From Echinarachnius parma (taxonomy: Eukaryota > Echinodermata > Echinoidea > Clypeasteroida > Echinarachniidae), in assembly GCA_037951105.1 (NCBI GenBank), contig JBAMJV010003345.1, forward strand, positions 186,001 to 250,000: a stretch of 64,000 nucleotides of DNA. The letters run 5' to 3'. Shown here in pieces: positions 5 through 41,099 of the stretch. The notes below the pieces were generated by a model, which did not search any database, was not told the origin of the DNA, and worked only from the letters and a program-made list of their open reading frames with translations. Every line of letters starts with the position of its first letter. The stretch's first letter is position 1. The translations under genes and the position numbers were made by a program.

Positions 5-171
5 GTTGCGACACCTGTCCCTGTGAGAGAAGGGCCTCAAAACACTCAGCTCCTAGACATGGAACATACATCTATGCATTCCACAGCAGGTCAAAGGTCA
101 TATTGCTTCTGGGCTAGCCCACTGCTGGATCACTTTGTCAACATGCTAGCCACTCTCATGGCTCCTGTCAG
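5..171 (+). CDS. EPG5: EPG5 exon 1 of window
   Basis: The frame reads ...[19 protein letters not shown] and ends at donor GTGAGC (172), phase 2. In this frame bases 2-4 are a stop, so the exon most likely starts at 5, just after the AG at 3-4. The upstream intron and earlier exons are outside the window. Confidence 0.85.
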
Positions 172-3100
172 GTGAGCTTTAAGAACTGATAATAATACTA
201 ATTATTGTCCATTTTTCTATAGCACTTTATTACAGTTAAGTCACAAAGCGTAAGAGCATTATTACTTTGGCTTTAGCCGAGCAGCCTTATTCAATTGCCC
301 ATTAACTACATCTGGGTTGAGAGCAGCAAGTGTGGATGAAGTGTCTTGCTGAAGAAAGCATGTGCTGCGGCTGGGAATCGAACCCACGACCTTCGTATTT
401 AAAGACGAAGGCCCAAGCCAATATACCAAAACACTCCCACTACTGATAATACGAAAGACCCCCCAAAAAAACTTTGATATTTGAAGCTTGAATAACTGAT
501 GGAACAAAAGACCCCAAGAAAACAAAGATACATGTATTTTAATCTTGAATAATTGTTGGCATGAAAGATCCCAAGTAAATAAAAATATTTGAATCTTGAA
601 TAAGTGATGGTACGAAAGACCATAAATAAGTATTTAAAGCTTGAATAACTGCTAACCGAGTACCTTGCTAAGATGACGGTGGCAGTCTCGCGAAATGGTT
701 GTTTTCATTTGTTTGTGTGTGTGTCAGTCGGTTTGTTTGTTTGTCTGTTTCTATGTAAGTTTGTTTTTATTGATCAATTATCCATTTTCACTTCTCCTTG
801 TCGGGTACCGTGAAGAGTACCTGGCTAAAATGCCAGTGACAGCAAGCTCATTTCTAGAAATTACATTTTCTTTTGTATTTGTTTGTAATATTTCATGTTC
901 ATTTTTGCTTGTTTTAATTGATAGATTTGTCCTTTCTCGTATTACCTATACCAGATACCGTGAGGAGTACCTGGCTAAGATGACAGTGACAGCAAACTCT
1001 TCTCAGACCTCGAGTGATAGCGCAATCAACTGGACCTTGGTCGATGAGGATCTAGATGCTGAAGACGTATGTTACAATGTTCAAATTTATTCAGAAACAT
1101 TCAACAATTTTGTTGCTACATTTGTTTAAAAGAGATCAAATGGTTCAAATATACACATCTGTGCAATCTTTTAAATTATTTTAGTAAATTTTTATATCTA
1201 ATTTGAGTAAATTTTATCAGTTTTCTTGATTTTCATTCATACAGATTATTTTTGCATAACTTTTTTTGTTTAATATGGTACAAAGAGTGAGGACAAAGGG
1301 AAAAGAAACAAATTTGTTGATGAGATTTTAATAATAGGTCTTTTAATCTGTTGTAACTCATATATTCTGCTTGTGTATTTCAGGAGGAGTCTTGTCATTC
1401 TCTGTTACTCAACGAGAGTGACTTGGTGGATCTGTTTGCCCAGTTTCCATTCAGGGAGATGTTCAGCCACGTACTCTTAGTTGATACCAGTGGTAAGTTG
1501 AGAGCATAATATTTATTTTGTCACAGGAAAAACTGTGGGTTACAATATTGAACTGTGTTTAATTTAATATAGATGTACATTTGTATTTTTGTCTGAAATA
1601 CATTCTGATTTGAACTTTGGTATTGTTTAAAATGTAGTTTTTTATCAGCTTTGCACATTCCAAGAGTCTCTTGTAGTAAGAATTAAGATTTTTGTTTTGT
1701 CACATCTTGAATTTGACCCATGTTGACATTTCTTATTGTTTAAATGTGTCTCTACAACACAATTCAATAAAGCATACATAATTCAATATATTGATAGTCT
1801 GAGGGTTGACGTGGTTGAGTCTAAGCCATGCTTATGATACTGTATTTTGTGTTCATTTAATACTTCTTTGAATTTTGTTGTTGTCTAATCCCTGTTTATT
1901 TTCTATTATTTTACAGCTGACAAGGCGTACAGTATAGAGCAGGTTGAGAGCCAGGACATGCTGAAGCTAGTAGCTTTCAGTTCCTCACTCATCGATATCT
2001 TCCACTCGGGACTACAGACATTCAACAGGTCTAGATATAGGCAGTTTGTCAAGAGAATCGGCAGACTTATCAGGTAAGCCCATAAAATGTTTCTATAGCA
2101 TGCATTTGAAGGCCCTGTCACGCGTAGGCTTCCAATAAGATTAGTAGACTCACTAAGTAACAAGACATGTTGGAGACATGTTAAAGCTTGTAGTTCTCAG
2201 TTCCATGCTCATTGGGTTCAAATGCATACATTTTAATAACAATCAGTATTATAAAACGGCTCCGGTAAATTCAGTAACGTGATTGGCTAATACCAATCAC
2301 GTGGGCATTGATTACTTTTCTCCAACTGCACCACCGTGCCGATACTGCGCAACCATCGTGCAGAAGGTGTGCAACCCCGTGACGTCACAATGCTTGTTTA
2401 CATAGTTCTACGAAGACAAACTCGCGAAAGTGAAGAAAAAAAAAGATGTAAAATGCTTCGTTTTTGTAAATTATCTGTTCTGTAGTAAATAAATCGTAGC
2501 AGTTTCGTAAATTATATGGTGTGTGGTTTGATATGGTTAAGTTTTGGAATGGAAATGCATAACATTCTTTGATAATTCTCAATTTTATGGGAAAATATTC
2601 GGCAATGTCCCATCAACTGCATTTGATCCAGTGCTGAGCTGCAAAGTCAAATTCAGTGAAGCGAATGCAGTAGTGATGATTAATTTGGTAAATTCCTAAT
2701 TAATTCACACTCTAGAGAGTAGATAGACTGGGTTACTAATTGTGGCAAGTCTGTTTTCAATAATCCAGCAAAATAAAACAATCCGTGGTTTTATAAAACA
2801 AATAATACTATGTCAGCCTTATTATCGTGCATCATGTAAATGCATCACACTCTCGGGCTATGTTAGCTGTGCGCATGCGCACTCGGATTACGCCTCGTGC
2901 GTAATGCACAGCTAACATAGCCCTCGCGTGCAATGCATTTACACAATGCACTCTAGACCGTGTATTATTTGTATAATATTGGTTATTACCAAGAAGCTTT
3001 GATGTAATAGATTTGTTGTTTTTGTCGAAGTCTCAAATCCTTGCATTTTTTTGCTTTTGAGTATGTTTTATTCCAAGAGTACAAATGGCTTTCCATAATT

Positions 3101-6100
3101 GTTAGGTCCAATTTAGAGTTAAGTTCAACTTAGAATCTTTGTGAAACATCACCCTGGTCTCTGCCGACATACAGTGCAATAAATACCCCCCTGGTCTGTG
3201 CAGACATACAGTGCAATACGTGGCTAACCACTACTTGCATTTGTTTTGCTTTCGAATATTTTTTATTCCAAGAGTACAATATGGCTCACCTTAATTCTAA
3301 TTAAGTCTAATTTAGAATTTAAGTTCAACTTAGTTAAAATTATTGTGATACACCCCATCTGCAGACATACAGTGCAATACGTGGCTAACCACTGGACCAA
3401 TTATCGGACCTGGAGGATGGACATCTGTGGCGATGCGGAAGACTCGGCCCTTCCCTCATCGGACCAACAGAGGGCGATAACGCTGCAGCAGATCCAGCTT
3501 GAAGTTGACGAGCTGTTCTTCAGGGCTGTGCAGTGCATCATGAGTTCTCCAAGGTAAGCTACAGCAAAAAAAAAGACATGTATACAAAATTTACTTTAAA
3601 TGAAAATGAGCCTAGACAATTCAATTTTTAGTATGAATGCTTTGATAACTGCCAATGATGAATTTTCTCAAAAAGTGACTGAAAATATATTCCCTAATTT
3701 GTATGTAAATATATTTTAAAAGAGAGGTAACACCAACAGAGTAGAAAATGGGTCTGGTTCTCTAAGCACAAGCTTTATGCCACTGCCATATAAAGTACCT
3801 GGAGACATTTTCTTATGGTTTTCCCCTCACATGATGTGGAGGTTTCTATGGTTCTGGCATCACTATGACAAAATATACAATGTCTTACACACTCTAGTTT
3901 AATTGATAAACATGTGTGGTGACTTCAGTAGAATTAATATATGGTGAATTTTATATTTTGTTGGCTATAAATAGACTTGGTACCTGGCAGTTCCTGGCTG
4001 ACATGCCCTACTCGTGCCTGTCCCCTCACATGATGTGGCGGTTGCTATGGTTCCTGCATCACTCTGACAAGGGGGAGATCTCTCAACCTGGCTCCATCAG
4101 TGTCAGTGCCAGAGCCAAGCTGAACGAGTACAAATGGGACCTCAAAGGTACTATACGCGTCTAAATTTGTCATGATGTTAACTAGAGCAGAGTCAAAATG
4201 TTGACTAAATATTTAAATGTTTTTTGTATACGTTTTAAAACATTTAAAGAAACAGAATAATTCAGCACCAATGTGAACTATTACTAAGCATAGAAATCTA
4301 GATGATGAAAGTGGGGAAAAGCACTAATCTGCTTTAAAAATGCCAGTGTAATACAAATGAAGTGTCTTTAGACGTTGGACGAGTACAAATGGGACCTCAA
4401 AGGTACTACTGATGTTAACTATTTCTAGGATAGAAATCTAGATGAAGAAAAGGTGGGAAAAGGCACTGATATGCTGGAAAAATGCTGCTGTATTAAAATT
4501 AAGAGTCATTTATAGACAGCCTAAGCTTTCGATCACTCAGAATCAAACAACAAACTGTTGCACATGCCCATGCCAGTAATCCTGAATCAGTTGAATTATA
4601 TCCCGTATTTCCATGAGAGTAAATGATTATACCTGTACAAAGGCCATATAACAAAGTCATAGTGATTTCAGGTAATGATATCAGTTTTGCATGCCTCATT
4701 TCCTTTCAGATATAACGAAGAAGGAGAAGTTTGGCAACAAGCTGCTGAACATGCCGATGTCAGAGGTCATCTATCTCCTGACCACGTTTGCCAACATGGC
4801 CAGCGCCAGGACCAACAAGGAAGCAGACTTTGTGGAGTTCATCACCACTGAGGTCTATGAGGTATGTTTAAAGTTAAGTTAAATTCCTTCCCGTACCAAT
4901 TTGGCACATAAGGCAGCGCCTATCTCCAATTCGTTAGCCCTAGGCCACACGTCTACTATCTCCTGACCACGTTTGCCAACGTGGCATGTTCTATTGCATG
5001 TTCTCATTATAATAATGAATTTACAGATTGTATGTAGTTTCTTGAGATTTAGTTTAGCATCACAAGTTAGGAAATGCTTTGTTTTTTTCTTGTCTTTATC
5101 CATCCAGCTTGCCTACCTGAACAAGTACACAAGAGACTCGTGTTCCAAGGTTGGCAGAGAACTGTTGGCACTTGGCAGGCATCGCTCTATCACATCCTTT
5201 CAGTCTCACTTGTATCAATAAATAAACTTGAATTTATGGTTAATTTATTGCATGTTCTCATTATAATGATTCCTTTACATAGATTCTTGAGATTTAGCTT
5301 CACAAAAAAGAGAAAATAAGTTATGAAATGTTTTGCTTTTTTCTTGTCTTTATCCGTCCAGCTTGCATACCTGAACAAGTACACGAGAGACTCGTGTTCC
5401 AAGGTTGGCCGAGAACTGTTGGCAGGCATCGCCCTGACCCATCCCTTCATCCTGACCAACATCCTGGACCTCATCCAGTCTTCCATGGACATCATTGGAT
5501 CTGTGAGAATACATTCCTTTTACATTTAACACTATCTAGTTTGGGTTTAAAGACACTAGTTGATTCATTAGGCTCAATAAGAAAGCATTTGTTAATTTTT
5601 GTTGGTATCAATTTACTGACTGTTAGTGTTTTTTGCACTAAATTAATTGTGCATAGCTGCAGTGACTGCAGCGACTGCAGCTATGTAATCCATTAACTTT
5701 TGTCATTTCAACCAAAAGCACTTGGAGCTATCACATTTCTCTTGTACCTTATTGTTTGGCTTATGGTAACAGAAGAATTAAAATTAACATGTAATTGTTT
5801 TATTTTGTCTCATTTTAGATGAGTCTGTACCTGTGTGCAGAGCTCCCTCTGCACCTATGGCTGCCTGCTCTCTCTGACATGCTGGTCATCAGGAAGTGGC
5901 TCCTAGACCACCCTTCTGACTCCATCCAGAACCAGCTAGCCAGACTCATCCTGTCCAAACTCAACTGGGGCTTCAATGAACAGGTGTGTAGTTACGTATC
6001 ACATGGATGTCACATGCATTTCACATGTGCAACCATGTCTGTCACATGTGTGCTGCAAGTGTGTCACATGTTTGCCTTATGTATAACATACATTGGCTAG

Positions 6101-14926: not shown

Positions 14927-14979
<53 letters not shown>

Positions 14980-32900: not shown

Positions 32901-35900
32901 AAGATAGACGCAGCATGGTCGACCGACGGCAGGATCATCCTGCTGCTGAAGGCAGCGAACGGGAGATCTGTCAGGAAAAGAATTTGGTCGGTGAGTGAGC
33001 TTTCAAAGATATAAACTACAAAACATTTTTTTAATTTCTCTATCCGGACCTTATCATGATATTGACATTGACATTTATTGAGACAATACACATTCCCATG
33101 ATACCGGAAGTCTACATTTGTGCCTTAGGGCTATACATCTGAACTCTGAAATTTGAATTTAATATTATTGCTAATTTTCTTATAAATTAATTTCATATTC
33201 TTCCCATGTGTATACAACCATTATGAACTGTTATTCGCTATATTTTTAAGATAATATTATTTGTCGTTGTTTGTTGTTTGTCTTTTTGATGTCATTTGAA
33301 TGTAGTTGTATCTTGTGTAACAGGCAAAATAATGTAACATGTAGTAATTGTTTCTTGTGCAAAGTGGATGATCAAACTGATTTTACACTTGATGATGATA
33401 CTGGTGATCTCATTGAAAATCAATATTACACTCCCTTGGAATTTAGTCATGTTTTGGAAAACTTTAAACAATCTACGCTATCTCTTGCCCAATTTAATTG
33501 TCGGAGCTTAAAACAAAATTTTGATACATTCACAAACTGTCTTGATGTTTTCAATAAACCATTATCATTAATTGGAGTTTGTGAAACATGGTTAAAACAA
33601 GGAGAAGAACAAGAAATTTGTATTCCTCATTATAACTTTGTTGGAAATTGTCGCCCAAATAAAAGAGGAGGTGGAGTTGGTTTATATATTAATGATACCC
33701 TAAGATTTTTTAGACGTTTGGATTTAGATATTTTTAGTGATGATATGGAAAGTGTGTTTATTGAATTACGTAATAATGTGAAAAATGTTATAGTTGCTGT
33801 TGTATATCGACCTCCAGCTCAAAATCCGTTAAATTGTTTACTTCAACTTCAAGTATCGTTGAATAAGATTGTGGAAGAAAGAAAAGAATGTATTGTTATG
33901 GGCGATGTTAATGTTGATTTTCTGAAAAAGGAAGAAAGTATGAGTGTAATGGATTTTTTTAATAGCTTTGTTACTCTCTCATTTTTACCATATATTTATA
34001 AGCCGACTAGAATAACAAAAGATACTGCATCAACTTTAGATAATATATTTTATAATTATTTTGAAAATGTTTTAAAATGTGGCATAGTTATTACGGATGT
34101 GAGTGATCACTTAACACCATTCATTATTTTGAAATCAAATACGTTTGATTCCGAGGCTGATGATGAAGTTCCTAAAGTTGATTTGAATGAAGAAAATATT
34201 AAACACTTTTGTAATGAGTTGAATAAAGTAAGATGGGAACGACTAAATTTAATTCATGATGTGAATGATAGGTATAATTACTTTTTTAAGTTATACAATG
34301 TATAAAGAGGTTTATGATGAATGTTTTCCTGTTAAATTTGTTAAAAAGAAAAAGAAAATAGATAAGCCTTGGGTAACAAAAGAGGTAATACAATTGAGTA
34401 AACGTAAACACTTGTTATATCGGAAGTACTTAAGAAATTCAACTCCTTTACGTGAACTTGCATATAAAACATGTAGAAACACTTTAAATAATTTAATTCG
34501 GGAAAATAAACGTGCATACTATGATTCTAAATTTGATAATGCTCGTAATAACGTGAAAGCAACATGGAAACTAATTAATATGATTTTGAATAAGAAAACA
34601 TCTAAGCATGGTGTAAATGATATTGAAGTTGATGGTGAAAAAATTGTGGATAAACAAAGAATTGTCAATATATTTAATTCTTATTTCAGTAAAATTGGGC
34701 AAGAATTGCAGCAAAATATTAATACTAACTTGTGTAATGATGGGTCAGTTAAATATGATCAGTACCTAAAAGGAAATTTTCGGAACTCAATGTTTTTATC
34801 CCCTGTTACAAATGCAGATATTATTGATGTGGTTATGAAGTTTGATGTAAATAAAAGTCCTGGTTATGATGGAGTTCACCCTAAGGTACTGAAACAGTCG
34901 ATTCATTTAATTGTTACACCTTTATGTAATATTATTAATTTGTCATTTGAAAATGGAATATTCCCAGATGCTCTGAAGATTGCTAAGGTAATTCCAGTTT
35001 TTAAAAAAGGCAATAAATCTCTTTTGAATAATTATAGACCAATATCCGTTTTATCAGTTTTTAGTAAATTATTTGAAAAGATTTTATGTACTCAATTGAC
35101 TAGTTTTATATGTAAAAATAATATTTTATATGAGAAACAGTTTGCTTTTAGAAAAGGTTATAGTACTTGCCATGCACTTCTCGATTTTACAGATAAAGTA
35201 GCAAATGCTTTTGAAAGTAATGAATTCTTAATTGGTGTATTTTTAGACCTCTCAAAAGCGTTTGATTGTATTGATCATGATATTTTAATAAATAAATTAT
35301 GTTTTTATGGAGTAAGAGGAATTCCTCTTCTTTTAATGAAAAGTTATTTAACACACCGAAGGCAATTTGTTAGTATGGGCAAATTTTACTCAGAACATAG
35401 TTCTATTTTAACTGGGGTCCCACAAGGTTCAAATCTTGGACCACTCTTGTTTTTATTGTATATTAATGATTTGCCACTTGTCAGTAATATTTTATCTTCT
35501 ATTTTATTTGCTGACGACACTACCTTGTTTGTATCTGGTAAAGATCCTGTACATGTTAATATTTTATTAAATAGTGAAATTGCTAAAATACATAAATGGT
35601 TTCTTGCCAATAAATTGTTGATAAACTTTGATAAAACAAACTATATTATTTTTAAAACTAAAAATAAATATGTGAAGGATGATGATATCAAGATATGTAT
35701 TAATGGAAAAGAAATAAAGCAAGTACACCAAGTAACCTTTTTAGGTATTATTATTGATGAACACTTAACCTGGAAATACCATATAAATTGTATTTTCAAT
35801 AAGATCTCTAAAGTAATTGGTGTTTTAAATAGACTTAAATTTATATTGCCGTTACGTATACTAGTAAACTTGTATAATACTATGATTTTACCATATCTTA

Positions 35901-38900
35901 ATTATTGTATAATCGTATGGGGCAATTGTGCAATGTATTTGATGCAAAAGATATTTTTATTACAAAAGAGAGTTGTCAGGGTTATAACAAATTCTTTTTA
36001 TAGAGCACATACAGACAAATTATTTTTTAAATTGAAAATTTTAAAACTTCATGATTTATATGAGATAAGTGTTGCCGCTTTTATGTTCACTTATGTATAC
36101 GATCAAATTCACTTGCCTATTTGTTTTAATGATTACTTTGTTTTTAATAGAAACATAAATGTATATACAACTAGAAATTCACACAAAATTTATGTTCCAT
36201 TCTTTCGTTATAGTTTTTCTAGATAGTTTTTCTGTTATTAGATATAGAGGGTCAGTTATTTGGAATAATCTACCAGACTTTTTAAAAGAGTGTCCAACAT
36301 TACTTAATTTTAAGCGGAAATTTAAATGTAAACAATTATCAAGTTACAATTTATCCATATAATTTCATACGAAAACCTAATTTTGCCTGCCTGTATGTAT
36401 GTTTGTATATGTGTGCCTTTGTAGTTTGTAAATATTAGTTGCATTATTGTGAACAACATTTTTATTATTGTTTATTTATGATATAATTCATGGTGCTGTA
36501 GAAAAAGGGGACCGGCCTAGACAGGCCAATGGCCTTTTCCGGTCCCTCACATCCCTGCAATACCCACTACCAATATTTGTTGTTTGCTGTTGTACAATAT
36601 CTTTTCTCATTACATGTTGTAAATAGTTTGTATAAATTTAAATGTATTCGATTGTTAAATGTTGATTTTATGGATGTGAAATAAACTGAACTGAACTGAA
36701 ATAGTAATGATGCCTACATTTCTCACCTAAATCTACATGCGTTCCTAATGCTATCCTGGCTGGCCTCTATCAGCTGGTAGATGGGAAATAGTGGCTATTT
36801 ATTGATGATTTTCTCTTGTCTCTTTCCCCAGCTGGTCCCAGTGTAGGTACATCGAGCCACCTGTGTTTCCTTCTCACAACTATTCTCTCCCTCCTCAATG
36901 GCTGCTCCCCACTGACTGGTGCCCCTGATGCTATCCTAGGATTACATTCATTGGCCACTGGTTGGCTGATGTAGAGGATAGATGTTTTCTTAAATATATT
37001 TTATGAGTATCTATTGATGTTTGTTTATTTCCTCTCTGCAGCGGGTCCCAGTGTAGGTACATCGAGCCACCTGTGTTCCCTCCTCACCACTATTCTCTCC
37101 CTCCTCAATGGCTGCTCCCCCCCGACTGGTGCCCCTGATGCTATCCTGGGAGGGCTGTGCCAGTGGCTGTCTGGCTGATGTAGAGATGTTTTCTGATATA
37201 TCTATTGATGTTTGTTACCTATCCTCTCTGCAGCGGGTCCCAGTGTGGGTACATCGAGCCACCTGTGTTCCCTCCTCACCACTATTCTCTCCCTCCTCAA
37301 TGGCTGCTCCCCCCTGACTGGTGCCCCCGATGCTATCCTGGGAGGGCTGTGCCAGTGGCTGGCTGGCTGTGCTGATAGCTCCCTGGTCCTCAACATCATC
37401 TCTGTGGCTTGTAATACACTGGCTTCTACTAAACACATGGCAACCATCATTGAGGCCTGCATCGATTCCTACTTTGCTACGGGTAAAGTAAAGCTTCTTT
37501 GATTGGGTATAGATATATATTTTAAATGTGTAAATGCAAATGAAAGCTTGTTGGTGGTATATAAAATCTCTGTGGTATGCAAAAACACTGGTTTCCACTA
37601 AACACATGGCCACCATCATTGATTTGTACTTTGCTATAGGTAAATATATGTCTATATGGCATCCCCTCTTTAAACCCCTTCATTTGCTTGCTAAAACTGT
37701 TTTGAGCATACCGGTAAATATGTGTTTAACCAAGGACAAACAAAATTGAGGGAGGTCTTGAGTGAGGTGCATACCTAACCCTCTATGTGTACCTCACCCA
37801 GAGGACACCTGTAACCTTCTCATTCTTGTTCTTCCTATTTCAGTTAAACCCTCTCCTAGCGATCAGACCCACGGCTGGTCTGGCATAGCGGCAGTGCTAC
37901 AGATCCCCCAGCTGTCACACGATGAGTTCCTGACCCAGTGTCTTGAGGGAGGTGCGTACCTGACCCTCTATGGGTACCTCACCCAGAGGCTGCCGCTATG
38001 TCAGAACCTGGATGAGGAGACGGCCCTGCAAGCCAAGCTGGTGGACTGGTGCATCAACTGCAAACCATGGTAAAAACAAATTTTACTTTTTAAATGAAAA
38101 TAAGCAAAAAAGATTTGGGCTTCCCCGGAAATCTAACCTGAGACCGCTGGGTTGTTAGACTGGTGCTCTAATAACTGAGCTAGAAAGCTCTTGTGATGGT
38201 TATCCGTCCCCAAAACACTTTTTAGCTTGTGCTAGTAAAAAAATGGACATGTCTGCACTGGACATTTGCAGAAGGCGTAATATGGAGACATTTGTATCGT
38301 GTATATGACTCTCTCATGGATAATCAGGATATGTATATGGTATTTTTCTGTATCTTTTTCTTTATTAAAACAAAATCATAAGAATAATACAACTGCTATC
38401 ATCTTTTCTTTGCTTCTAACCAGTCGAGAGAATGAGTACAAGCTGTTACTATGGTGGTACAAAGCCCTGGAGGTCTGCATAAGAATGGTGAAGTTCGGAA
38501 CCCCGGAGTATTCTGTGTCTCGCTCGCTCAACAATCTAACACCGTCCATCTTGGCTCTGGGAGAGGACCGCCGGACGTCAGGCATCCTGGGAGCTCTGGG
38601 CTTTGGCAGACAGTCGCAGCTCTCCTACAGGTTAGTTTCTTCTGGAATATTCTTCAGAAAGGCCCATGTTAATAAGACCATGCTAGCTTTAGTTCCATTC
38701 TTAGTCAGTTTTTAGATTTTAGTCATGGTATTCAACAACAGATGCTTTTAATTGTTTTGCTCCTATCCTACATTTTTGTTCTCAACAGAAACAGACTTTG
38801 AATAGAACTAAGTAGTGTGGTTTTATGAATATGAGCCCTGGGCCCCGTTGCAGAAAGAGATACAATCGATTGTAAGTTGCAATTAATCATAAGTCAGATC

Positions 38901-39961
38901 ACGTGTTCTAGATGCGCAAATCTGATTGGCTGAAACGCGTACATTTTCTGACTTACGATCAATTGTAACTTACAATCGATTGTATCTCTTTCTGCAACGG
39001 GGCCCTGGACTTTCAAATGCCATTTGGTTTAACGAAGTGTTGAGATTTGAAACCCCGCTGGAACTCTTAATAATAAGATATAGCAGTTATAGCACTATGG
39101 GATTAAATTGGCGCCTGCATTTAATAAATTTGTCCTTTTTGATCTGTCTTCCATCTATTGTCCCTTGTCTGTTGTTCAGTGATGTTAGTAACAATAGTTA
39201 AAGTTTTCAACGAGACAAATAAATTTTGCTTTCAGGCAAGTGGGCGAAACTTGACCTCTGATTGACAACAGTTATACATTTGACTTAATATTTTATGGTA
39301 CATGTATCTGTATAATGCACCTGTGGAATTAAAGACATTGTGAGATGTTGAAGTTGTTGAATTATTAGTTGATATTTGATGGTATCTGGATGATGCCTTT
39401 AATTCAAAGACATTGTGAGATGTTAAAGTTGTTCAATGTTTAGTTAATGTTTGATGGTTTCTGGATGATTATTTTTAAATTAAAGACATTGTGGGATTTT
39501 GAAGTTGTTCAGTGTTTAGTTAATATTTCATGGTATCTGGATGATGCCTTTGAACTAGAAACGTTGTGAGATGTTAAGCCGATATTCCCTCTGCTTTCTG
39601 TGCCCCATTTAATTACAGGTTTCGTCTGGCAGCCAGATGCCTTGCAGTGTTCATCATGGCTCAGCTCCCCAAGGACGGGATCCGCATGGTGGCCAATGCC
39701 CCAGGGGCGGTGGGTGTGCCCCCCTCCGCCCGCAGCAGCAGCGTCCAGCAGGGCATGAAGCTCCTGGACAGTGCTCTGGAGAACCGCAGCTACCTGGACC
39801 TCAAGACCGTGACGGAATACGTGAGGAGGTTTGTGCTGGACGGACACCACTGCCTGCCCGACTCGTTGCCCCTCATCTCGTACCTCACTGGACAACTCTT
39901 CCCAGAGAGGGCGTGCCTCAACATCATCCTTCAGCAAAATGCGAATGTTTCTCCATCATAG
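5..39961 (+). CDS. EPG5: EPG5 (ectopic P-granules autophagy protein 5 homolog), 3' 38 exons
   Basis: EPG5 is a large Rab7 effector on late endosomes and lysosomes that tethers autophagosomes (LC3, STX17-SNAP29) for fusion. That is family knowledge. In the sequence, 38 exons joined by GT-AG introns give one uninterrupted frame of 2203 codons including TAG at 39959-39961. Many blocks match vertebrate EPG5 as I remember it: [56 protein letters not shown]. Vertebrate EPG5 is about 2580 residues, so roughly 380 N-terminal residues lie upstream. The protein is mostly helical with no obvious signal peptide or membrane segment. The gene spans 40 kb and converges on FAIM. Oddities: partial tandem exon copies beside about twenty exons, a LINE in intron 34, a LINE fragment in intron 19, and foldback elements in many introns. 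Exons are numbered within this window. Confidence 0.97.
188..445 (-). repeat. tRNA-derived SINE (minus strand) in EPG5 intron 1
   Basis: Read on the minus strand, about 443-371 looks like a degenerate tRNA head with a clear B box (GGGTTCGATTCCCAGCC). It is followed by a SINE body (GCACATGCTTTCTTCAGCAAGAC...) and a tail with AAAGTGCTATAG and short ATT repeats. The cloverleaf is not intact, so this is a SINE and not a working tRNA gene. Similar tails (GCGCTATATAA-like, followed by ATT repeats) recur near 6.9, 14.6, 25.6, 26.3 and 46.7 kb. Confidence 0.7.
449..655. repeat. Short tandem repeat, about 50-57 bp unit, four units
   Basis: The units share (a)cgaaagacc, a T/A-rich middle and ttgaataactgatgg. 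They start near 449, 507, 561 and 609. The array lies directly upstream of the first partial copy of exon 2. Confidence 0.7.
654..851 (+). pseudogene. Two decayed partial copies of EPG5 exon 2
   Basis: Bases 654-688 (accgagtaccttgctaagat...) and 806-851 (ggtaccgtgaagagtacctg...) copy the start of exon 2 (955 onward). Neither ends in a usable donor at the equivalent place, so they are probably unused acceptor-side copies. Confidence 0.75.
955..1066 (+). CDS. EPG5: EPG5 exon 2
   Basis: Acceptor ccag, donor gtatgt. It completes a split Arg codon and reads [18 protein letters not shown], then [14 protein letters not shown]. It ends in phase 0. Confidence 0.93.
1384..1492 (+). CDS. EPG5: EPG5 exon 3
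   Basis: Acceptor tttcag, donor gtaagt. It reads [18 protein letters not shown] and [14 protein letters not shown], ending in phase 1. Confidence 0.93.
1917..2073 (+). CDS. EPG5: EPG5 exon 4
   Basis: Acceptor ttacag, donor gtaagc. It contains [20 protein letters not shown] followed by VKRIGRLIR, a strongly conserved EPG5 block. It ends in phase 2. Confidence 0.96.
2247..2990. repeat. Composite foldback element in EPG5 intron 4
   Basis: The core is a near-perfect hairpin at about 2836-2943: gctatgttagctgtgc faces gcacagctaacatagc across a CpG-rich loop. Outer segments share ataaaacaaataatac-type ends. It looks like a non-autonomous DNA element; no coding capacity is seen and the outer limits are approximate. 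Confidence 0.5.
3060..3364 (+). repeat. Tandem copies of intron 4 end plus exon 5 start
   Basis: A unit holding a mini-element (ttattccaagagtac... ...gttcaacttag) and the first bases of exon 5 (cagacatacagtgcaatac) occurs at 3060-3236 and again at 3245 into exon 5. A further short exon-start copy is at 3161-3182. The mini-element also occurs in the other orientation at 23143-23235. Confidence 0.75.
3365..3553 (+). CDS. EPG5: EPG5 exon 5
   Basis: Acceptor tctgcag, donor gtaagc. It reads [18 protein letters not shown] and, after a less conserved stretch, [15 protein letters not shown]. It ends in phase 2. Two acceptor-side partial copies precede it. Confidence 0.95.
3795..3872 (+). pseudogene. 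Decayed internal copy of EPG5 exon 6
   Basis: cctcacatgatgtggaggtt and following bases match exon 6 at about 4024-4070 with substitutions. No splice sites accompany it. Confidence 0.7.
3975..4147 (+). CDS. EPG5: EPG5 exon 6
   Basis: Acceptor aatag, donor gtacta. It reads [20 protein letters not shown] and [16 protein letters not shown], matching the vertebrate block LGIWLFMSEMPF...LWKLFYLMH. It ends in phase 1. A short 3'-end copy with donor lies at 4378-4408. Confidence 0.95.
4710..4861 (+). CDS. EPG5: EPG5 exon 7
   Basis: Acceptor tttcag, donor gtatgt. It reads [30 protein letters not shown] and [12 protein letters not shown], ending in phase 0. A fragment of it (ctatctcctgaccacgtttg) recurs in the intron at 4957-4984. 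Confidence 0.96.
5107..5200 (+). pseudogene. Frame-broken upstream copy of EPG5 exon 8
   Basis: It has a good acceptor (tccag at 5106) and begins [20 protein letters not shown], like exon 8. It carries a 7-base insertion relative to exon 8 (a repeat of acttggc) and then diverges, so it cannot substitute for exon 8. Its pyrimidine tract is also duplicated from exon 8. Confidence 0.8.
5362..5502 (+). CDS. EPG5: EPG5 exon 8
   Basis: Acceptor gtccag, donor gtgaga. It reads [20 protein letters not shown], then [16 protein letters not shown], 47 codons, phase 0 on both sides. Confidence 0.95.
5819..5983 (+). CDS. EPG5: EPG5 exon 9
   Basis: Acceptor ttttag, donor gtgtgt. It reads [20 protein letters not shown], then VIRKWLLD and [17 protein letters not shown], a hallmark EPG5 segment. 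55 codons, phase 0 on both sides. Confidence 0.97.
6095..6367 (+). repeat. Two donor-side copies of EPG5 exon 9
   Basis: Bases 6095-6144 and 6311-6367 repeat the 3' third of exon 9 (ggctagccagactcatcc...), each followed by a donor (gtatgt) and by intron sequence rich in cacatg motifs. Neither has an acceptor of its own, so the first donor at 5984 is the one consistent with the protein. Confidence 0.8.
6588..6707 (+). CDS. EPG5: EPG5 exon 10
   Basis: Acceptor ttctag, donor gtaagt. It reads [19 protein letters not shown] and [17 protein letters not shown], 40 codons, phase 0 on both sides. The donor region (ctctcagtaagttg) is echoed at 6752-6766. Confidence 0.93.
6890..6997 (+). repeat. SINE 3' tail fragment
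   Basis: gatggccaagggtaataatg, followed by tggcactttataaatgctat and ATT repeats, matches the tail type of the SINE at 188-445. No tRNA-like head is visible. Confidence 0.5.
7124..7494 (+). CDS. EPG5: EPG5 exon 11
   Basis: Acceptor ctacag, donor gtaagt; the largest internal exon (371 nt). It reads [20 protein letters not shown] and [11 protein letters not shown], then a low-complexity Gly/Ala/Ser linker ([20 protein letters not shown]), then [20 protein letters not shown]. It ends in phase 2. Confidence 0.95.
7573..7695 (+). pseudogene. Duplicate of the EPG5 exon 11 3' part, donor lost
   Basis: It repeats about 7366-7494 at high identity with an open frame ([20 protein letters not shown]...). 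Where exon 11 has its donor, the copy reads acaccctta, so that donor is gone. It is presumably intronic. Confidence 0.8.
7905..8051 (+). CDS. EPG5: EPG5 exon 12
   Basis: Acceptor ttttag, donor gtaagg. It reads [19 protein letters not shown], then [19 protein letters not shown]. It ends in phase 2. Confidence 0.94.
8173..8264. repeat. Foldback mini-element (cttaaagtgccagg family), copy 1
   Basis: It runs from ttaaagtgccagggattgca to gagcttggcactcaatgag. The same sequence in reverse orientation is at about 19969-20055 in intron 26. Confidence 0.6.
8542..8659 (+). CDS. EPG5: EPG5 exon 13
   Basis: Acceptor atacag, donor gtaagt. It reads [20 protein letters not shown] and [14 protein letters not shown]. 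It ends in phase 0. Confidence 0.93.
8670..8902. mobile_element. TA-flanked MITE in EPG5 intron 13
   Basis: The ends are TACTGTAAAC and GTTTACAGTA, i.e. TA followed by an inverted repeat CTGTAAAC, which suggests a Tc1/mariner-like target site. The interior is CpG-rich (cgcgaaatattaatcgcgcg) and non-coding. Confidence 0.6.
9030..9748. repeat. Long foldback element (about 320-bp arms)
   Basis: The left arm (about 9030-9345) and right arm (about 9415-9748) are reverse complements over most of their length. For example atgtacaacttatggcacat faces atgtgccataagttgtacat, and ttagggtagtaaacgtac faces gtacgtttactaccctaa. There is no protein coding of note. A transcript could form a very long hairpin. 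Confidence 0.8.
9832..9905 (+). pseudogene. Decayed acceptor-side copy of EPG5 exon 14
   Basis: aaccctgcttcattcttcca and following bases resemble the start of exon 14 (9966 onward). The AG before the exon is lost. Confidence 0.7.
9966..10175 (+). CDS. EPG5: EPG5 exon 14
   Basis: Acceptor ttccag, donor gtaaga. It reads [20 protein letters not shown], then [17 protein letters not shown], exactly 70 codons, phase 0 on both sides. It is followed by an (ACACAT)-type microsatellite at about 10180-10257. Confidence 0.93.
10425..10662. repeat. Palindromic repeat of CCCATAGAAA / TTTCTATGGG motifs
   Basis: Blocks of cccataggaaacccatag alternate with their reverse complement ctatgggtttcctatggg. The whole is a clustered foldback. 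A second short motif, ctatgggaatttcgac, occurs twice (10557, 10648). Confidence 0.7.
10690..11995. other. EPG5 intron 14, remainder
   Basis: AT-rich intron with a roughly 25-base C run at about 11250-11274 and no gene or recognisable element. The open frame near 10773-11048 has no family resemblance. Confidence 0.6.
11996..12226 (+). CDS. EPG5: EPG5 exon 15
   Basis: Acceptor attag, donor gtaggc. It reads [20 protein letters not shown], then [18 protein letters not shown] and FTIDQAVK, exactly 77 codons, phase 0 on both sides. It corresponds to the vertebrate block ending in FTPDQALKK. Confidence 0.92.
12250..12541 (+). repeat. Two donor-side copies of EPG5 exon 15
   Basis: Bases 12250-12354 (gctgagacttggctggctcc...gaccaagctgtcacg, followed by gtatgc) and 12450-12541 (gacttggaccctgcagga...) repeat the exon's last third. 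The first keeps a donor-like gt; the second does not. Both differ from the exon at many positions. Confidence 0.8.
12782..12948 (+). CDS. EPG5: EPG5 exon 16
   Basis: Acceptor ttccag, donor gtaggt. It reads [20 protein letters not shown] and [19 protein letters not shown], matching vertebrate LLIYRWAHQAL...HPLLPLIWQKFFLLYL. It ends in phase 2. Confidence 0.97.
13033..13455 (+). repeat. Three donor-side copies of EPG5 exon 16
   Basis: Copies at 13033-13146 (interrupted), 13231-13347 (very close to the exon) and 13399-13455 (truncated) each contain the exon's 3' part; the first two include a gtagg donor. Spacing is about 195 bp, then 168. The unit is exon 3' end plus intron 5' end. Confidence 0.85.
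13823..14107 (+). CDS. EPG5: EPG5 exon 17
   Basis: Acceptor cttcag, donor gtaagt. It reads [33 protein letters not shown], and an acidic tail region [20 protein letters not shown]. It ends in phase 2. Confidence 0.94.
14168..14262 (+). pseudogene. Decayed internal copy of EPG5 exon 18
   Basis: gaggaacccttgctgcttga and following bases match exon 18 at about 14396-14470 with many changes. No splice sites are visible. Confidence 0.65.
14370..14493 (+). CDS. EPG5: EPG5 exon 18
   Basis: Acceptor ctaaag, donor gtaggt. It reads [20 protein letters not shown] and [18 protein letters not shown], like vertebrate RLFNVYILWLEDE...IPSLPKHYDIHRL. It ends in phase 0. Confidence 0.94.
14692..14827 (+). CDS. 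EPG5: EPG5 exon 19
   Basis: Acceptor ccccag, donor gtaaac. It reads [20 protein letters not shown] and [11 protein letters not shown]. It ends in phase 1. A microsatellite starts right after the donor. Confidence 0.93.
14840..15016. repeat. Compound microsatellite (GGT)n / (GAT)n
   Basis: Runs of ggt and gat with gatggt interruptions. The long Met-rich and Ile-rich frames on both strands here are artefacts of the repeat. Confidence 0.9.
15185..15665 (-). mobile_element. Truncated LINE 3' end in EPG5 intron 19
   Basis: The minus strand encodes the C-terminal end of a non-LTR retrotransposon ORF2: [20 protein letters not shown], then [19 protein letters not shown] (a Cys/His metal-binding-like tail). 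The stop is near 15252, followed by a short 3' UTR ending in ACGAAAGAAGAAGAAG, typical of such elements. The open frame extends to 15710 but its first residues probably read into host intron, because the exon 20 pyrimidine tract starts about 15690. The element is 5'-truncated and dead. Confidence 0.8.
15721..15892 (+). CDS. EPG5: EPG5 exon 20
   Basis: Acceptor ttgtag, donor gtaaga. It reads [20 protein letters not shown], then [20 protein letters not shown]. It ends in phase 2. Only about 55 bp separate it from the LINE fragment. Confidence 0.93.
16342..16432 (+). CDS. EPG5: EPG5 exon 21
   Basis: Acceptor ttgcag, donor gtaagc. It reads [20 protein letters not shown] and [11 protein letters not shown]. 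It ends in phase 0. Confidence 0.92.
16832..16909 (+). CDS. EPG5: EPG5 exon 22 (short)
   Basis: Acceptor ggccag, donor gtaaga; 26 codons, phase 0 on both sides. It reads [20 protein letters not shown] then ARIVVM, aligning with vertebrate TTLHLECRGSSGKKCQGAAVV. Confidence 0.9.
17078..17399. mobile_element. MITE with 16-bp inverted ends in EPG5 intron 22
   Basis: AACAGAGATGCCAACC at the left faces GGTTGGCATCTCTGTT at the right. TTAAAA flanks CAGAGATG...CATCTCTG on both sides as a possible 6-bp duplication. Non-coding interior. Confidence 0.7.
17531..17673 (+). CDS. EPG5: EPG5 exon 23
   Basis: Acceptor ttacag, donor gtgagt. It reads [20 protein letters not shown] (a charged, likely helical stretch) and [16 protein letters not shown]. 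It ends in phase 2. Confidence 0.93.
17742..17907. mobile_element. Palindromic MITE (gggggtgttgcataaagagt)
   Basis: ggggtgttgcataaagagtt faces aactctttatgcaacacccc, and gcgattaatctcaaagttgcg-type inner repeats continue the palindrome. Related elements are at 38840-39005 and 42780-42926. Confidence 0.8.
18091..18256 (+). CDS. EPG5: EPG5 exon 24
   Basis: Acceptor ctgtag, donor gtaata. It reads [18 protein letters not shown] then [18 protein letters not shown], nearly identical to the vertebrate block. It ends in phase 0. Confidence 0.97.
18345..18622. repeat. Copy of the GGWACCACC TTAA-type mini-element (decayed)
   Basis: aaaacccatcacaatactat, then gtgttggacatttatttcat and tgtgtggtgatccccttta match the element at 40075-40352. 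The left end is lost. Confidence 0.6.
18832..19026 (+). CDS. EPG5: EPG5 exon 25
   Basis: Acceptor aaacag, donor gtaatt. It reads [40 protein letters not shown] and [11 protein letters not shown]; 65 codons, phase 0. Confidence 0.96.
19223..19609 (+). repeat. Three tandem acceptor-side copies of EPG5 exon 26
   Basis: A roughly 117-bp unit (intron end ttgactcatgttttgtattc, acceptor, then [14 protein letters not shown] and a few more codons) occurs at 19261, 19378 and 19493 before the true exon at 19610. Copies 2 and 3 are almost identical to the true one. Each copy keeps an AG acceptor (tctag or ccag) but continues into ggttaggc or tgagaggt and not into the rest of the exon. Confidence 0.88.
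19610..19829 (+). CDS. EPG5: EPG5 exon 26
   Basis: Acceptor atccag, donor gtgaga. It reads [20 protein letters not shown], then [20 protein letters not shown]. It is the last of four tandem starts and the only one that continues through the exon. It ends in phase 1. Confidence 0.95.
19969..20055. repeat. Foldback mini-element (cttaaagtgccagg family), copy 2
   Basis: Reverse-orientation relative of 8173-8264: gagtgccaagctcgcatttt ... ccctggcacttaagagttaa. Confidence 0.6.
20309..20454 (+). CDS. EPG5: EPG5 exon 27
   Basis: Acceptor tgttag, donor gtaagc. It reads [20 protein letters not shown] and [18 protein letters not shown]. It ends in phase 0. Confidence 0.92.
20477..20872. mobile_element. 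TTAA-flanked MITE (AGGGATCTAGTAAC family)
   Basis: TTAA then AGGGATCTAGTAACTTTGTT at the left; AATGTTACTAAGTCCCT then TTAA at the right. A truncated relative is at 30977-31085. No transposase. Confidence 0.75.
20877..21776 (+). repeat. Tandem array of acceptor-side copies of EPG5 exon 28
   Basis: A roughly 190-bp unit (pyrimidine tract, caccag, exon start) begins its exon part near 20998, 21197, 21387 and 21577, with the true exon at 21777. A tail-only partial copy is at 20877-20943. Copies 2-4 encode [19 protein letters not shown]... and then end at LLGYIA or LLEYIA and a stop, without a donor. Copy 1 has lost its AG acceptor. Later copies are nearly identical to each other. Confidence 0.9.
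21777..21975 (+). CDS. EPG5: EPG5 exon 28
   Basis: Acceptor caccag, donor gtaagt. It reads [40 protein letters not shown] and [15 protein letters not shown]. It is the last of the tandem copies and the only one that runs on to a donor. It ends in phase 1. Confidence 0.95.
22220..22745. mobile_element. TTAA-flanked MITE (AGGGCAATG family)
   Basis: TTAAAGGGCAATGCAAC at the left and CATTGCCCTTTAA at the right. The 526-bp interior is non-coding and CpG-containing. Confidence 0.7.
23021..23099 (+). CDS. EPG5: EPG5 exon 29 (short)
   Basis: Acceptor tcgcag, donor gtgagt. It reads [20 protein letters not shown] and ends in phase 2. A partial acceptor-side copy (catgttgtatgctggaaggt) lies at 22889-22920. 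Confidence 0.93.
23143..23235. repeat. Mini-element gggtgtttcacaaagatcct
   Basis: The reverse complement of this stretch occurs upstream of exon 5 (3060-3146), so it is a dispersed element. It contains taagttgaacttaactctaa. Confidence 0.6.
23643..24070 (+). repeat. Three decayed upstream copies of EPG5 exon 30
   Basis: At 23648-23711, 23779-23880 and 23939-24060 sequence resembling intron 29's end and exon 30 recurs (for the last: tctttcagaccgggaaccca ... gtagagactaccaccgtcat). The copy nearest the exon keeps ttcag but has an in-frame stop (tttgtag where the exon has tttgtgg). Confidence 0.75.
24127..24239 (+). CDS. EPG5: EPG5 exon 30
   Basis: Acceptor tttcag, donor gtgagt. It reads [20 protein letters not shown] and [17 protein letters not shown]. 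It ends in phase 1. Confidence 0.92.
24240..26386. other. EPG5 intron 30
   Basis: A 2.1-kb AT-rich intron. No gene is seen. It holds a SINE-like tail near 25570-25640 (aagcgcttag...ctctatataaat), the mini-element at 26065-26280, and another tail (gatatgcgctatagaagaac plus ATT repeats) at 26300-26352. Confidence 0.6.
26065..26280. mobile_element. MITE (TGTGACCGGCTATAGC family), copy 1
   Basis: The ends contain gtgaccggctatagcaaacc and gggttttgctaaagcgggca, with cccggcacttgtcag facing ccgacaagtgccggg just inside. Other copies: 42331-42581 and 48164-48420. Confidence 0.75.
26387..26562 (+). CDS. EPG5: EPG5 exon 31
   Basis: Acceptor gtccag, donor gtatgg. It reads [40 protein letters not shown] and [12 protein letters not shown], matching vertebrate [23 protein letters not shown]. 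It ends in phase 0. It is the first of five tandem copies and the only one with an acceptor. Confidence 0.96.
26563..27392 (+). repeat. Tandem array of four donor-side copies of EPG5 exon 31
   Basis: A roughly 188-bp unit (exon part from about TCGCTTCCTCTGC to ATGATCAGG, donor gtatg, then about 60 bp of intron) recurs with exon-part ends at 26750, 26938, 27128 and 27316. Spacing is 188, 188, 190 and 188. All copies keep the coding sequence and donor; none has an AG acceptor where the exon begins (tctacgac instead). Confidence 0.92.
27679..27864 (+). CDS. EPG5: EPG5 exon 32
   Basis: Acceptor ccctag, donor gtatgt. It reads [40 protein letters not shown] and [17 protein letters not shown]; 62 codons, phase 0. 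Confidence 0.95.
27886..28104. repeat. SINE-like dispersed repeat between exon 32 and its copy
   Basis: ctcggtttatatagcgccta, then ctctaagcgctttacaatga and attattacccccggtcatag are typical of a common marine-invertebrate short repeat. It continues with agcacacattgtgtgcacca. It sits exactly between exon 32's donor and the duplicated exon end. Confidence 0.55.
28105..28212 (+). pseudogene. Donor-side copy of EPG5 exon 32
   Basis: It repeats the exon from gagcatggttgccaggggcg to caggctcag with a gtcagt donor; only a few substitutions. No acceptor. Confidence 0.85.
28527..28678 (+). CDS. EPG5: EPG5 exon 33
   Basis: Acceptor tttcag, donor gtgaga. It reads [20 protein letters not shown] and [19 protein letters not shown]. 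It ends in phase 2. Confidence 0.93.
28721..29069. mobile_element. TTAA-flanked MITE (AGGTGCACCTGTAAAG family)
   Basis: TTAAAGGTGCACCTGTAAAG at the left faces CTTTACAGGTGCACCTTTAA at the right: a perfect 20-bp inverted repeat including the TTAA. Part of its interior (ccacatttctcttctaccgt...) also occurs at 5735-5800. Confidence 0.8.
29430..30980. repeat. Composite repeat: two roughly 450-bp direct copies around a palindrome
   Basis: Bases 29640-30088 and 30507-30976 are diverged direct copies (shared ataagttccaaagaatattc, gcttgcgaaa, gcgcgcgt). Between them 30300-30450 is a long palindrome in which agaaaatagtgcttttcctg is the near-reverse complement of acagaaaaagcactattttc. No protein domain is seen. 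Confidence 0.7.
30977..31085. repeat. Truncated TTAA MITE, relative of 20477-20872
   Basis: ttaaagggatctaataactt and following bases match the left end of 20477-20872. The right end is missing. Confidence 0.7.
31170..31363 (+). CDS. EPG5: EPG5 exon 34
   Basis: Acceptor ccctag, donor gtgagt. It reads [40 protein letters not shown] and [17 protein letters not shown]. It ends in phase 1. The LINE lies in the intron that follows. Confidence 0.93.
31640..31702. repeat. Minisatellite, 12-bp unit
   Basis: tggtgtcaatc repeats about four times, next to two cases of agattgacctg. Confidence 0.75.
32217..33014 (+). CDS. LINE ORF1 protein (coiled coil plus RRM-like), 265 aa
   Basis: An RNA-binding chaperone of the L1 ORF1p type by family resemblance. 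A heptad-rich coiled coil spans about residues 55-115 ([20 protein letters not shown]...). It is followed by an RRM-like domain starting [12 protein letters not shown] and a C-terminal domain with [17 protein letters not shown] and [20 protein letters not shown]. The frame is complete from ATG to TAA. Its base composition is clearly richer in G and C than ORF2 downstream. Confidence 0.85.
   Translation: MPTSKAKKNTVAASAQPETESYDNHDHIADEVQNFFNSKHFNKMLQLAVTKSTKRETQDLREKLEKAEGSILELENQLRTKTETIKRLQEIQESSMASINKLKAESNEAEQHSRRTCIRVYGVPEHPGEDTDKLILDLARSKLDINLDQTEIDKSHRVGAPAAAGETTGRSATKPRPIIVRCTSYRTRERILKNRRKLKGTHIGIEEDLTVRNRTILYKAKEEAKKNDKIDAAWSTDGRIILLLKAANGRSVRKRIWSVSELSKI
33271..34305 (+). pseudogene. 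LINE ORF2, N-terminal part: AP-type endonuclease
   Basis: The endonuclease motifs are in order: [71 protein letters not shown]. The catalytic Asn, Glu, Tyr, GDxN and SDH residues all appear present. The frame ends at 34305; the reverse-transcriptase part continues in another frame from about 34265, so there is a frameshift near 34270-34300. It is very AT-rich. Confidence 0.85.
34265..36226 (+). pseudogene. LINE ORF2, reverse transcriptase part
   Basis: RT motifs in order: [10 protein letters not shown]...[82 protein letters not shown] (catalytic FADD), [12 protein letters not shown]. The style is that of the Jockey/CR1/Rex group; there is no RNase H. The frame leaves at 36226 by a second frameshift; the remaining C-terminus is in frame 36159-36362. 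Confidence 0.9.
36215..36362 (+). pseudogene. LINE ORF2, C-terminal end
   Basis: [18 protein letters not shown] and [17 protein letters not shown] is the usual C-terminal signature of this LINE group. It is in a different frame from the RT part, ending at a TAA-type stop at 36360-36362. Confidence 0.8.
36728..37233 (+). repeat. Acceptor-side copies of EPG5 exon 35
   Basis: Full-start copies at 36831 (cccag acceptor) and 37042 (tgcag acceptor), plus a fragment at 36744-36786, precede the true exon at 37234; spacing is about 211 and 192 bp. Each encodes [11 protein letters not shown]...[14 protein letters not shown]..., then diverges at about ggctgatgtagag. Confidence 0.88.
37234..37482 (+). 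CDS. EPG5: EPG5 exon 35
   Basis: Acceptor ctgcag, donor gtaaag. It reads [40 protein letters not shown] and [19 protein letters not shown], matching vertebrate LASVRHMAETTEACITAYF. It ends in phase 1. Confidence 0.96.
37563..37645 (+). pseudogene. Donor-side copy of EPG5 exon 35
   Basis: atctctgtggtatgcaaaaa ... actaaacacatggccaccat ... tactttgctataggtaaata repeats the exon's 3' end with its donor, with deletions. Exon 35 is thus duplicated at both edges. Confidence 0.8.
37757..37806 (+). pseudogene. Decayed internal copy of EPG5 exon 36
   Basis: gaggtgcatacctaaccctc ... tacctcacccagagga resembles exon 36 at 37948-37990. Confidence 0.7.
37844..38069 (+). CDS. EPG5: EPG5 exon 36
   Basis: Acceptor tttcag, donor gtaaaa. 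It reads [40 protein letters not shown] and [13 protein letters not shown], matching vertebrate [37 protein letters not shown]. It ends in phase 2. Confidence 0.97.
38424..38630 (+). CDS. EPG5: EPG5 exon 37
   Basis: Acceptor accag, donor gttagt. It reads [19 protein letters not shown], then [20 protein letters not shown]. It ends in phase 2. Confidence 0.96.
38840..39005. mobile_element. Perfect-ended palindromic MITE in EPG5 intron 37
   Basis: gggccccgttgcagaaagag faces ctctttctgcaacggggccc; the inner bases (tacaatcgattgtaagttgc...) extend the inverted repeat. Same style as 17742-17907. Confidence 0.85.
39325..39560. repeat. Short tandem repeat, about 75-90 bp unit, in EPG5 intron 37
   Basis: gacattgtgagatgttgaag followed by gttgaatta or gttcaatg, then tagttgatatttgatggtat and ctggatgatgcctttaattc, repeats about three times. 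Confidence 0.7.
39619..39961 (+). CDS. EPG5: EPG5 exon 38 (last coding exon)
   Basis: Acceptor ttacag. It reads [40 protein letters not shown] and [20 protein letters not shown], ending NVSPS and TAG at 39959. Vertebrate EPG5 ends similarly (RHPGHCLQDGKSFLALLVNCLYPE...). Decayed copies of its 3' half follow in the 3' UTR or downstream. Confidence 0.95.
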
Positions 39962-40074
39962 TAGATGGTGGAGACAGGGGACTTACCCTCACGCAGTATG
40001 TCAGCAAGTCATTGAAGGATGGGCATCAGTGTTTGCCAGATTCGGTGCAGCTTGTTTTATACCTTTAAAAGGAA

Positions 40075-40352
40075 CCACCACCCAAAAATGATATTCTTAT
40101 AAATGAAAGGTAATTGTTTTCGTAGTGCATTCCACCTACACCTTCAGAAAAATTGGCTTCCAGATAAAAATGAAATAATTTGAAAACTCATCACCATACT
40201 AGCGTAAATGTTCATGGGTCTGTATACGAAGACTACGGCTATTGTATAGGCATACACAACCCTTTGCAAAGTGTTGTACATTTATTTAATATTACACGCT
40301 GATACCAAAACATACGAGTCTGTGTTGTCCTTTGCATGGTGGTCCCCTTTAA
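40075..40352. mobile_element. TTAA-flanked MITE (AAGGAACCACC family), copy 2
   Basis: TTAA, AAGGAACCACCACCC at the left; GCATGGTGGTCCCCTT, TTAA-overlapping end at the right. Relatives: 18345-18622 (right part) and 46983-47270 (left part). Confidence 0.7.
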
Positions 40353-40879: not shown

Positions 40880-41099
40880 GGGGCCTGTTTCGTGAAAGGC
40901 TCTATGTTCGTACACAACCTTGATATAACTTTGACATGTACGGCAACACGTGTTGCATGAAAGCGTCTTTGCTATAATACTTCCAACCTTGTCCTTTGTG
41001 ATCGGAACAAATGCCATGCGTATGTCCGTAGATCAGTCACAGTCACCGGACAGTTAAGACTGTCTTTAATAGCTAAGAGCCTTTCATGAAACAGGCCCC
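40880..41099. mobile_element. MITE (GGGGCCTGTTTCRTGAAAGG)
   Basis: ggggcctgtttcgtgaaagg at the left faces cctttcatgaaacaggcccc at the right. Interior non-coding. Confidence 0.75.

Follow-up and report, generated by a model that had tools for sequence, protein, structure and literature searches.

Many exons of a long gene in the window are accompanied by short, partial, tandem copies of their edges that lie in the flanking introns, and copies of this kind also occur in other genes of the assembly. The copies have diverged much as non-coding DNA would, and most of those that cross a splice junction retain the AG or GT of the duplicated site. The explanation that we favor, with good though not complete confidence, is frequent local tandem duplication, the copies of exon edges being tolerated because the decoy splice sites lie farther from the partner site than does the true site.

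A 39-exon gene with an intact reading frame

The window is the whole stretch of DNA that was analysed, 64,000 nucleotides corresponding to positions 186001-250000 of contig C3344 in a 1.2-Gb assembly. Its plus strand carries the coding part of a gene at positions 5-39961, for which exons were placed by matching of exon edges. The model has 39 exons totaling 6636 nt, which give an open frame of 2211 aa with no internal stop; all introns are GT/AG and the host frame is intact. The 5' end is beyond the window, and the gene probably extends further upstream, past the window start. The gene is provisionally called EPG5; neither Pfam nor PDB yielded a match for the 2211-aa protein, and an Rfam search had no match either. 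Exon 15, a putative in-frame microexon of 27 nt (10887-10913) between exons 14 and 16, is doubtful. Provided that this microexon went uncounted in an earlier sequence-only reading, the exons named there as carrying copies (2, 5-9, 11, 14-16, 18, 26, 28-32, 35, 36 and 38) are exons 2, 5-9, 11, 14, 16, 17, 19, 27, 29-33, 36, 37 and 39 of our model.

The window also contains repeats of other kinds. Intron 35 holds a LINE-like element (32202-36223, plus strand) with frames for an endonuclease (33250-34302) and for a reverse transcriptase (34265-36223), both with Pfam matches, and ahead of the endonuclease frame an open frame (32202-33011) that gave weak coiled-coil matches only. An inverted repeat in intron 13 (9029-9324 and 9451-9745) has a foldback-like form, with 92% identity over 298 aligned positions. 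A dispersed element of ~250 bp is present in three copies (26063-26281, 42328-42582 and 48163-48420). Positions 51465-64000 are dense in satellites, with CATCAT-rich runs and units of 184, 154 and 230 bp, and a satellite at 53.2-56.3 kb consists of 17-18 copies of a ~165 bp unit with long G runs. Two stretches of 300 bases, 61185-61484 and 61783-62082, lie 598 apart and share 100% identity, which is either a very recent duplication or an assembly join.

Exon copies lie beside their source exons

Each exon was used as the query against positions 1-41500 of the window with the exons masked, and matches with E≤0.05 were kept. The search gave 44 same-strand matches, each in an intron adjoining the query exon or in its 3' flank, together with only one match elsewhere, of 18 nt, and no inverted match. 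As matches elsewhere are drawn from the same letters and serve as the control, chance is excluded. Matches were obtained for 21 of the 39 exons; exon 30 joins these via repeat clustering and exon 1 via copies just upstream of the window. The weak matches were those of exon 4 (E 4e-4), exon 7 upstream (0.005), exon 35 (0.002) and a fourth piece of exon 39 (0.011). When local repeats were clustered, 27 arrays resulted, of which 22 touch an exon; by comparison, there were five distant direct pairs and six inverted pairs. The sequence-only reading had reported over 35 partial tandem copies at about 20 exons; all 20 exons that it named do have copies (on the numbering assumption above), and the 44 local matches agree with its total.

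The affected exons are given below with their own positions followed by the span that includes the copies, all on the plus strand. On the acceptor side, exon 1 (span 5-171) has two copies immediately before the window start, with a unit of 145 and 97.7 and 94.4% identity. Exon 5 (3365-3553; span 3040-3553) has acceptor-side copies at 3167 and 3204, the former weak on exonic letters (E 0.021) yet within a 152-nt alignment. Single acceptor-side copies precede exon 8 (5362-5502; span 4992-5502), at 5108 with a unit of 254, exon 14 (9966-10175; span 9779-10175), at 9839 with the AG lost, and exon 30 (23021-23099; span 22847-23099), with a unit of 114. There are three such copies at exon 27 (19610-19829; span 19224-19829; unit 116), four plus a fragment at exon 29 (21777-21975; span 20875-21975; unit ~190) and two, at 23793 and 23959, at exon 31 (24127-24239; span 23654-24239). 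The exon-versus-intron search also placed copies upstream of exon 2 (955-1066; span 658-1066) at ~658 and ~805.

Donor-side copies follow exon 9 (5819-5983; span 5819-6461), with ends at 6144 and 6367, exon 32 (26387-26562; span 26387-27390), where there are four with a unit of 188, and exon 33 (27679-27864; span 27679-28229), where there is one at 28108-28229. Two copies lie downstream of exon 16 (11996-12226; span 11996-12541) and three downstream of exon 17 (12782-12948; span 12782-13449). The end of exon 11 (7124-7494; span 7124-7695) recurs downstream as a copy of 123 nt (7573-7695), in which the donor was not copied. Exon 6 (3975-4147; span 3822-4408) has an exon-internal copy upstream (3822-3871) and a donor-side copy downstream (4376-4402), and exon 36 (37234-37482; span 36796-37622) has two acceptor-side copies upstream and one exon-internal copy downstream. 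Exon 7 (4710-4861; span 4548-4985) has exon-internal copies without a junction at 4548-4576 (weak) and 4956-4985, and exons 19 (14370-14493; span 14183-14493) and 37 (37844-38069; span 37755-38069) have exon-internal copies upstream, at 14183-14257 and 37755-37804. Three or four degenerate copies lie 3' of the stop codon of the last exon, 39 (39619-39961 including the stop; span 39619-41246). As these copies of the exon 39 end (39878-41246) are 3' of the stop, copies are not confined to introns.

Most copies cross a single splice junction

A splice junction is crossed by 26 of the 44 alignments, with acceptor-side copies upstream of the exon and donor-side copies downstream, and both boundary types are copied (the acceptor side in, for example, exons 27, 29 and 36 and the donor side in exons 9, 17 and 32). 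The order of the copies and which copy is used are forced, because only the junction adjoining the rest of the exon keeps exon and frame whole. The statement of the sequence-only reading that most copies contain a junction is roughly correct, with the exception of nine single copies that have none.

The one-junction pattern is mostly geometry. When units were placed at random using the observed unit and exon lengths, 82% covered one junction, 10% a whole exon and 7.5% lay within an exon. None of the 22 exon-touching arrays has a whole-exon or exon-internal unit (P 0.013, with arrays lacking a visible junction entered as one-junction); no match among the 44 covered both junctions of an exon, and at the threshold used no exon contained an internal repeat. 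A selective filter against whole-exon and exon-internal units, of which the latter had been proposed from the sequence, is thus plausible but weakly supported, as random placement already gives so high a one-junction share.

The nine single copies without a junction are exon-internal and belong to exons 4, 6 (upstream), 7 (both sides), 11, 19, 35, 36 (downstream) and 37; a junction is likewise missing from the outer copy of exon 16 and from that of exon 17. In 10 of these 11 copies there is no homology between the copy edge and the junction, the exception being that downstream of exon 36. Across 30-123 nt, four of these nine share 90-97% identity with their source, and simple tandem duplication followed by decay therefore fails to explain them. 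The distance to the source is steady, 168-220 bp in all nine, although the homologous block measures just 29-123 bp.

The copies decay like non-coding DNA

Among the 26 copies that cross a junction, the mean identity was 0.916 for the exonic part versus 0.847 for the intronic part (within 60 nt), and the exonic part was the more identical in 18 of the 26 (Wilcoxon P 6e-4, copies in one array not being independent). This is the expected direction, as only one partner changes freely in the exonic part whereas two do so in the intronic part. Summed over all 44 alignments, exon and copy differed at 9.4, 8.0 and 17.5% of codon positions 1, 2 and 3, respectively. Both patterns fit a free copy paired with a constrained exon.

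The splice dinucleotides have fared similarly. All 11 donor copies keep GT, and of the 15 acceptor copies 10 keep AG (an additional exon 5 copy, beyond these 15, also retains AG); the resulting 21 of 26 compares with an expectation of 0.83, calculated from a divergence of 8.7% over the first two codon positions. Extension to the decoy would add a multiple of three nucleotides in 9 of 26 cases, the chance level, and in 25 of 26 the decoy, if used, would bring in a stop codon, the exception being exon 2, whose decoy AG is lost. With a matrix built from the true sites, many decoys scored as high as the true site and AG- or GT-keeping decoys of exons 8, 27, 29, 32 and 36 outscored it, a scoring biased toward the decoys because the true sites were scored leave-one-out and the decoys were not. 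Hence the copies decay like non-coding DNA and the decoy sites persist at about the neutral rate. The earlier description of the copies as decoy or alternative splice sites is apt as a description, but their survival is about what neutrality predicts and their use would nearly always truncate the frame.

Exon preference and unit length

A decay simulation gave an expectation of 41-46% of visible arrays at exons, against 22 of 27 observed (P at most 2e-4). A twofold visibility bonus had appeared to explain part of the exon excess, but the simulation did not bear this out. Counting intronic letters only, which puts exon-touching and intron-only arrays on an equal footing, the numbers were 8 versus 4, or 7 versus 5 when the array at 4273-4507 is taken as intron-only, as in the repeat clustering. 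The expected exon share on intronic letters was 32% when the introns were used in full (for 8 of 12, P 0.013) and 45, 53 and 63% if 70, 50 and 35% of the intron sequence is kept (P 0.12, 0.25 and 0.53). On the full count, exons may be preferred beyond the effect of visibility, but on intronic letters the balance could go either way. Local direct matches with a score of at least 50 were found for 76 of 246 mostly exonic 80-base windows and 309 of 1157 intronic ones (controls, ~1 of 1840), a test that does not separate exonic from intronic cases because the intronic matches include exon copies.

The shortest offset was 140-220 bp in 17 of the 27 arrays in the gene and in 35 of 70 outside it, the 70 being what is left of 80 arrays after removal of those with more than eight pairs and of the zinc-finger cluster. 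The homologous block was less than 80% of the offset in 38 of 56 single-pair arrays; offsets of 160-220 were seen in 15 of these 38 spaced pairs and in 6 of the 18 contiguous pairs. Offsets of 140-220 bp are near nucleosome spacing, although any link between the two is speculation, and our literature search for a nucleosome or Okazaki-fragment origin of such units returned nothing.

Similar copies in other genes

The 177 kb upstream on the contig contain 59 arrays (satellites and zinc-finger repeats counted) versus 27 in the 41.5 kb of the gene, and 36 local inverted pairs versus four. Some of these arrays lie where exons are not known, the exons there being unannotated. Upstream of the gene, at G000:C3344:151500-165000, zinc-finger-like open frames were recognized by eye together with arrays of 84-bp units. 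Four random stretches of 10 kb had 3, 2, 1 and 0 arrays, below the contig density, and a 389-base piece (L026) had one.

For a neighboring gene on the opposite strand, three pieces were compared with Pfam and matched APAF1_C and WD40. Its 18 coding segments, which we take as a guess to be one gene, TEP1-like, were hand-picked among the segments listed by a codon-usage scan, with low-complexity segments and ~91-108 kb left out. The scan matched 37 of the 39 known exons plus 108 other in-gene segments, many of them opposite-strand over exons, and served solely for this choice. Nine of the 18 segments have local direct copies; in all there were 18 local direct, no local inverted and three far matches.

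The dynein heavy chain family (PF08393) gave at least 108 matches on 20 contigs among the best candidates. Same-strand pairs of matches sharing at least 15 profile positions numbered 20, on 11 of the 20 contigs, and opposite-strand pairs were absent; some of the 20 may be ordinary exon-edge overlaps. Four dynein loci, selected for overlap, all had tandem copies of exon edges, and as many as 11 of the 20 contigs probably carry dynein genes with such copies. The same pattern is thus present in other genes of the assembly. The sequence-only reading had considered either the locus or the lineage unusually prone to these duplications: the contig arrays, the WD40/APAF1_C gene and the dynein genes are, within this genome, compatible with a lineage prone to them, and they argue against anything special to the gene called EPG5.

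Discussion

Frequent local tandem duplication would act as follows. The genome would often form short local tandem duplications, with a unit of 140-220 bp in at least half of the sampled arrays. A unit placed across one splice junction would give a full exon adjoining an array of partial intronic copies, and the copy next to the rest of the exon would retain both true splice sites. Decoy acceptors would lie farther upstream from the true donor and decoy donors farther downstream from the true acceptor, and exon definition by the nearest partner would, judging from this geometry, pass over them. If the decoys are so ignored, the copies would be nearly neutral, could increase in number through slippage or unequal exchange and would decay as non-coding DNA. 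As the real exon does not change, arrays that contain one would be recognizable longer and would in part stand out for that reason. Several observations speak against this account: the nine single copies without a junction, the 38 of 56 single-pair arrays with a block below 80% of the offset, the excess of arrays at exons over the simulation, the lower array numbers in the four random stretches and the local inverted pairs outside the gene.

It is possible, but doubtful, that exon edges are instead true hot spots of duplication, owing for instance to nucleosome-bound exons, transcription or paired nicks, in which case the focus on exons would be mechanistic rather than a matter of visibility and geometry. 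The 22 of 27 arrays at exons against the simulated 41-46%, the shared 140-220 bp offsets (17 of 27 in the gene, 35 of 70 outside) and the 168-220 bp that separate all nine junction-less copies from their sources speak for such hot spots. The excess shrinks to 8 versus 4 or 7 versus 5 on intronic letters, however; transposon-driven turnover of introns would be expected to deplete old intron-only arrays, and arrays also occur where no exons are known, exons there being unannotated. Retention of the copies for function, as alternative splice sites or regulated decoys, seems very improbable. The differences are those of unconstrained copies, the dinucleotides survive at a nearly neutral rate, 25 of 26 extended exons meet stops and multiples of three are not enriched, whereas the decoys of exons 8, 27, 29, 32 and 36 that outscore their true sites do so under a scoring that favors decoys.

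That alleles or reads were fused by the assembly into false tandem copies is hardly credible. Contigs C9335 and C9139, and likewise C7299 and C7896, have near-equal dynein scores with differing match spacing, and haplotypes are therefore probably incompletely collapsed. However, the exon copies are short and partial and their blocks of more than 60 nt are 70-98% identical, unlike near-identical long allelic copies; two stretches searched in the assembly occur on this contig only, and the same geometry recurs in other genes. Merged haplotypes, which the sequence-only reading had named as what could overturn it, are thus an unlikely explanation.

The host was examined through its mitochondrial DNA. 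In COX1 (contig C14600) TGA is read as Trp, and ATA, AAA (a single occurrence) and AGA are found at conserved Ile, Asn and Ser positions. The gene order is cox1, trnR, nad4L, cox2, trnK (anticodon CTT), atp8, atp6, cox3, trnS (other strand), nad3 and nad4, with tRNAs assigned by ARAGORN, proteins by eye and an ARAGORN trnL within the stretch taken as false. The code and the gene order are those of echinoderm mitochondria, and on this basis the host is probably an echinoderm rather than an amphioxus, which the mirage duplications described below had first suggested. A GFP-family search gave no match, but its control was likewise silent.

Intron gain by tandem duplication was reportedly proposed by Gao and Lynch in 2009. 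Intron gain through tandem duplication of AGGT-containing segments is reported in PMC4974935. The arrays described here are similar in that a within-gene tandem duplication copies splice signals, but differ from that account in that no gained intron is seen and the copies lie inside existing introns. In mutually exclusive splicing, tandemly duplicated whole exons carry both splice sites. Here too there are additional exon-like intronic copies, but whole-exon copies with both sites are absent (0 of 44).

The closest known systems are the amphioxus "mirages", minisatellite-like duplications at intron/exon boundaries of the globins BflGb6 and BflGb9, Adh3, PGBD5 and troponin C (PMC3087553, PMC3902484; the second adds PGBD5 and cites troponin C). 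According to these papers, BflGb6 has 150-160 bp units of 81-100% identity in haplotypes of 6 and 3 units (PMC3087553), the BflGb9 unit is 157, and haplotype differences with normal mRNA are reported (PMC3087553, PMC3902484). Among the matches listed from titles and abstract starts of open-licence literature, none concerned mirage duplications outside cephalochordates, echinoderms included. We raise only tentatively, and consider unlikely, the broad view that amphioxus and one or more echinoderms share a genome-wide tendency to nucleosome-scale exon-edge duplication, which might be ancient among deuterostomes, with exons favored and nearest-partner splicing tolerating dozens of intact decoys. 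If true, those dozens of intact decoy sites would be a standing supply of new introns and longer exons. Dozens of natural decoys, many of them intact, also offer a ready test of how the spliceosome chooses among near-identical sites, and the arrays bear on intron growth and origin and may mislead gene predictors into false exons.

As in the amphioxus mirages, upstream copies take in the end of the intron and the start of the exon, downstream copies take in the end of the exon and the start of the intron, AG or GT persists in many copies though not in every one (21 of 26 here) and the host gene is intact, here as judged from its frame. A mirage copy spans one intron/exon boundary, as do 26 of the 44 alignments but not the nine single copies. 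Unlike the mirages in those accounts, which are reported in cephalochordates, the present copies are found at about half of the exons in a single long gene and also in further genes, some copies lack a junction and the host appears to be an echinoderm. A curiosity of a few amphioxus genes is thereby extended to probably another phylum, where it is apparently common: the phenomenon is real and of a known kind, in a probably new host group and at high density.
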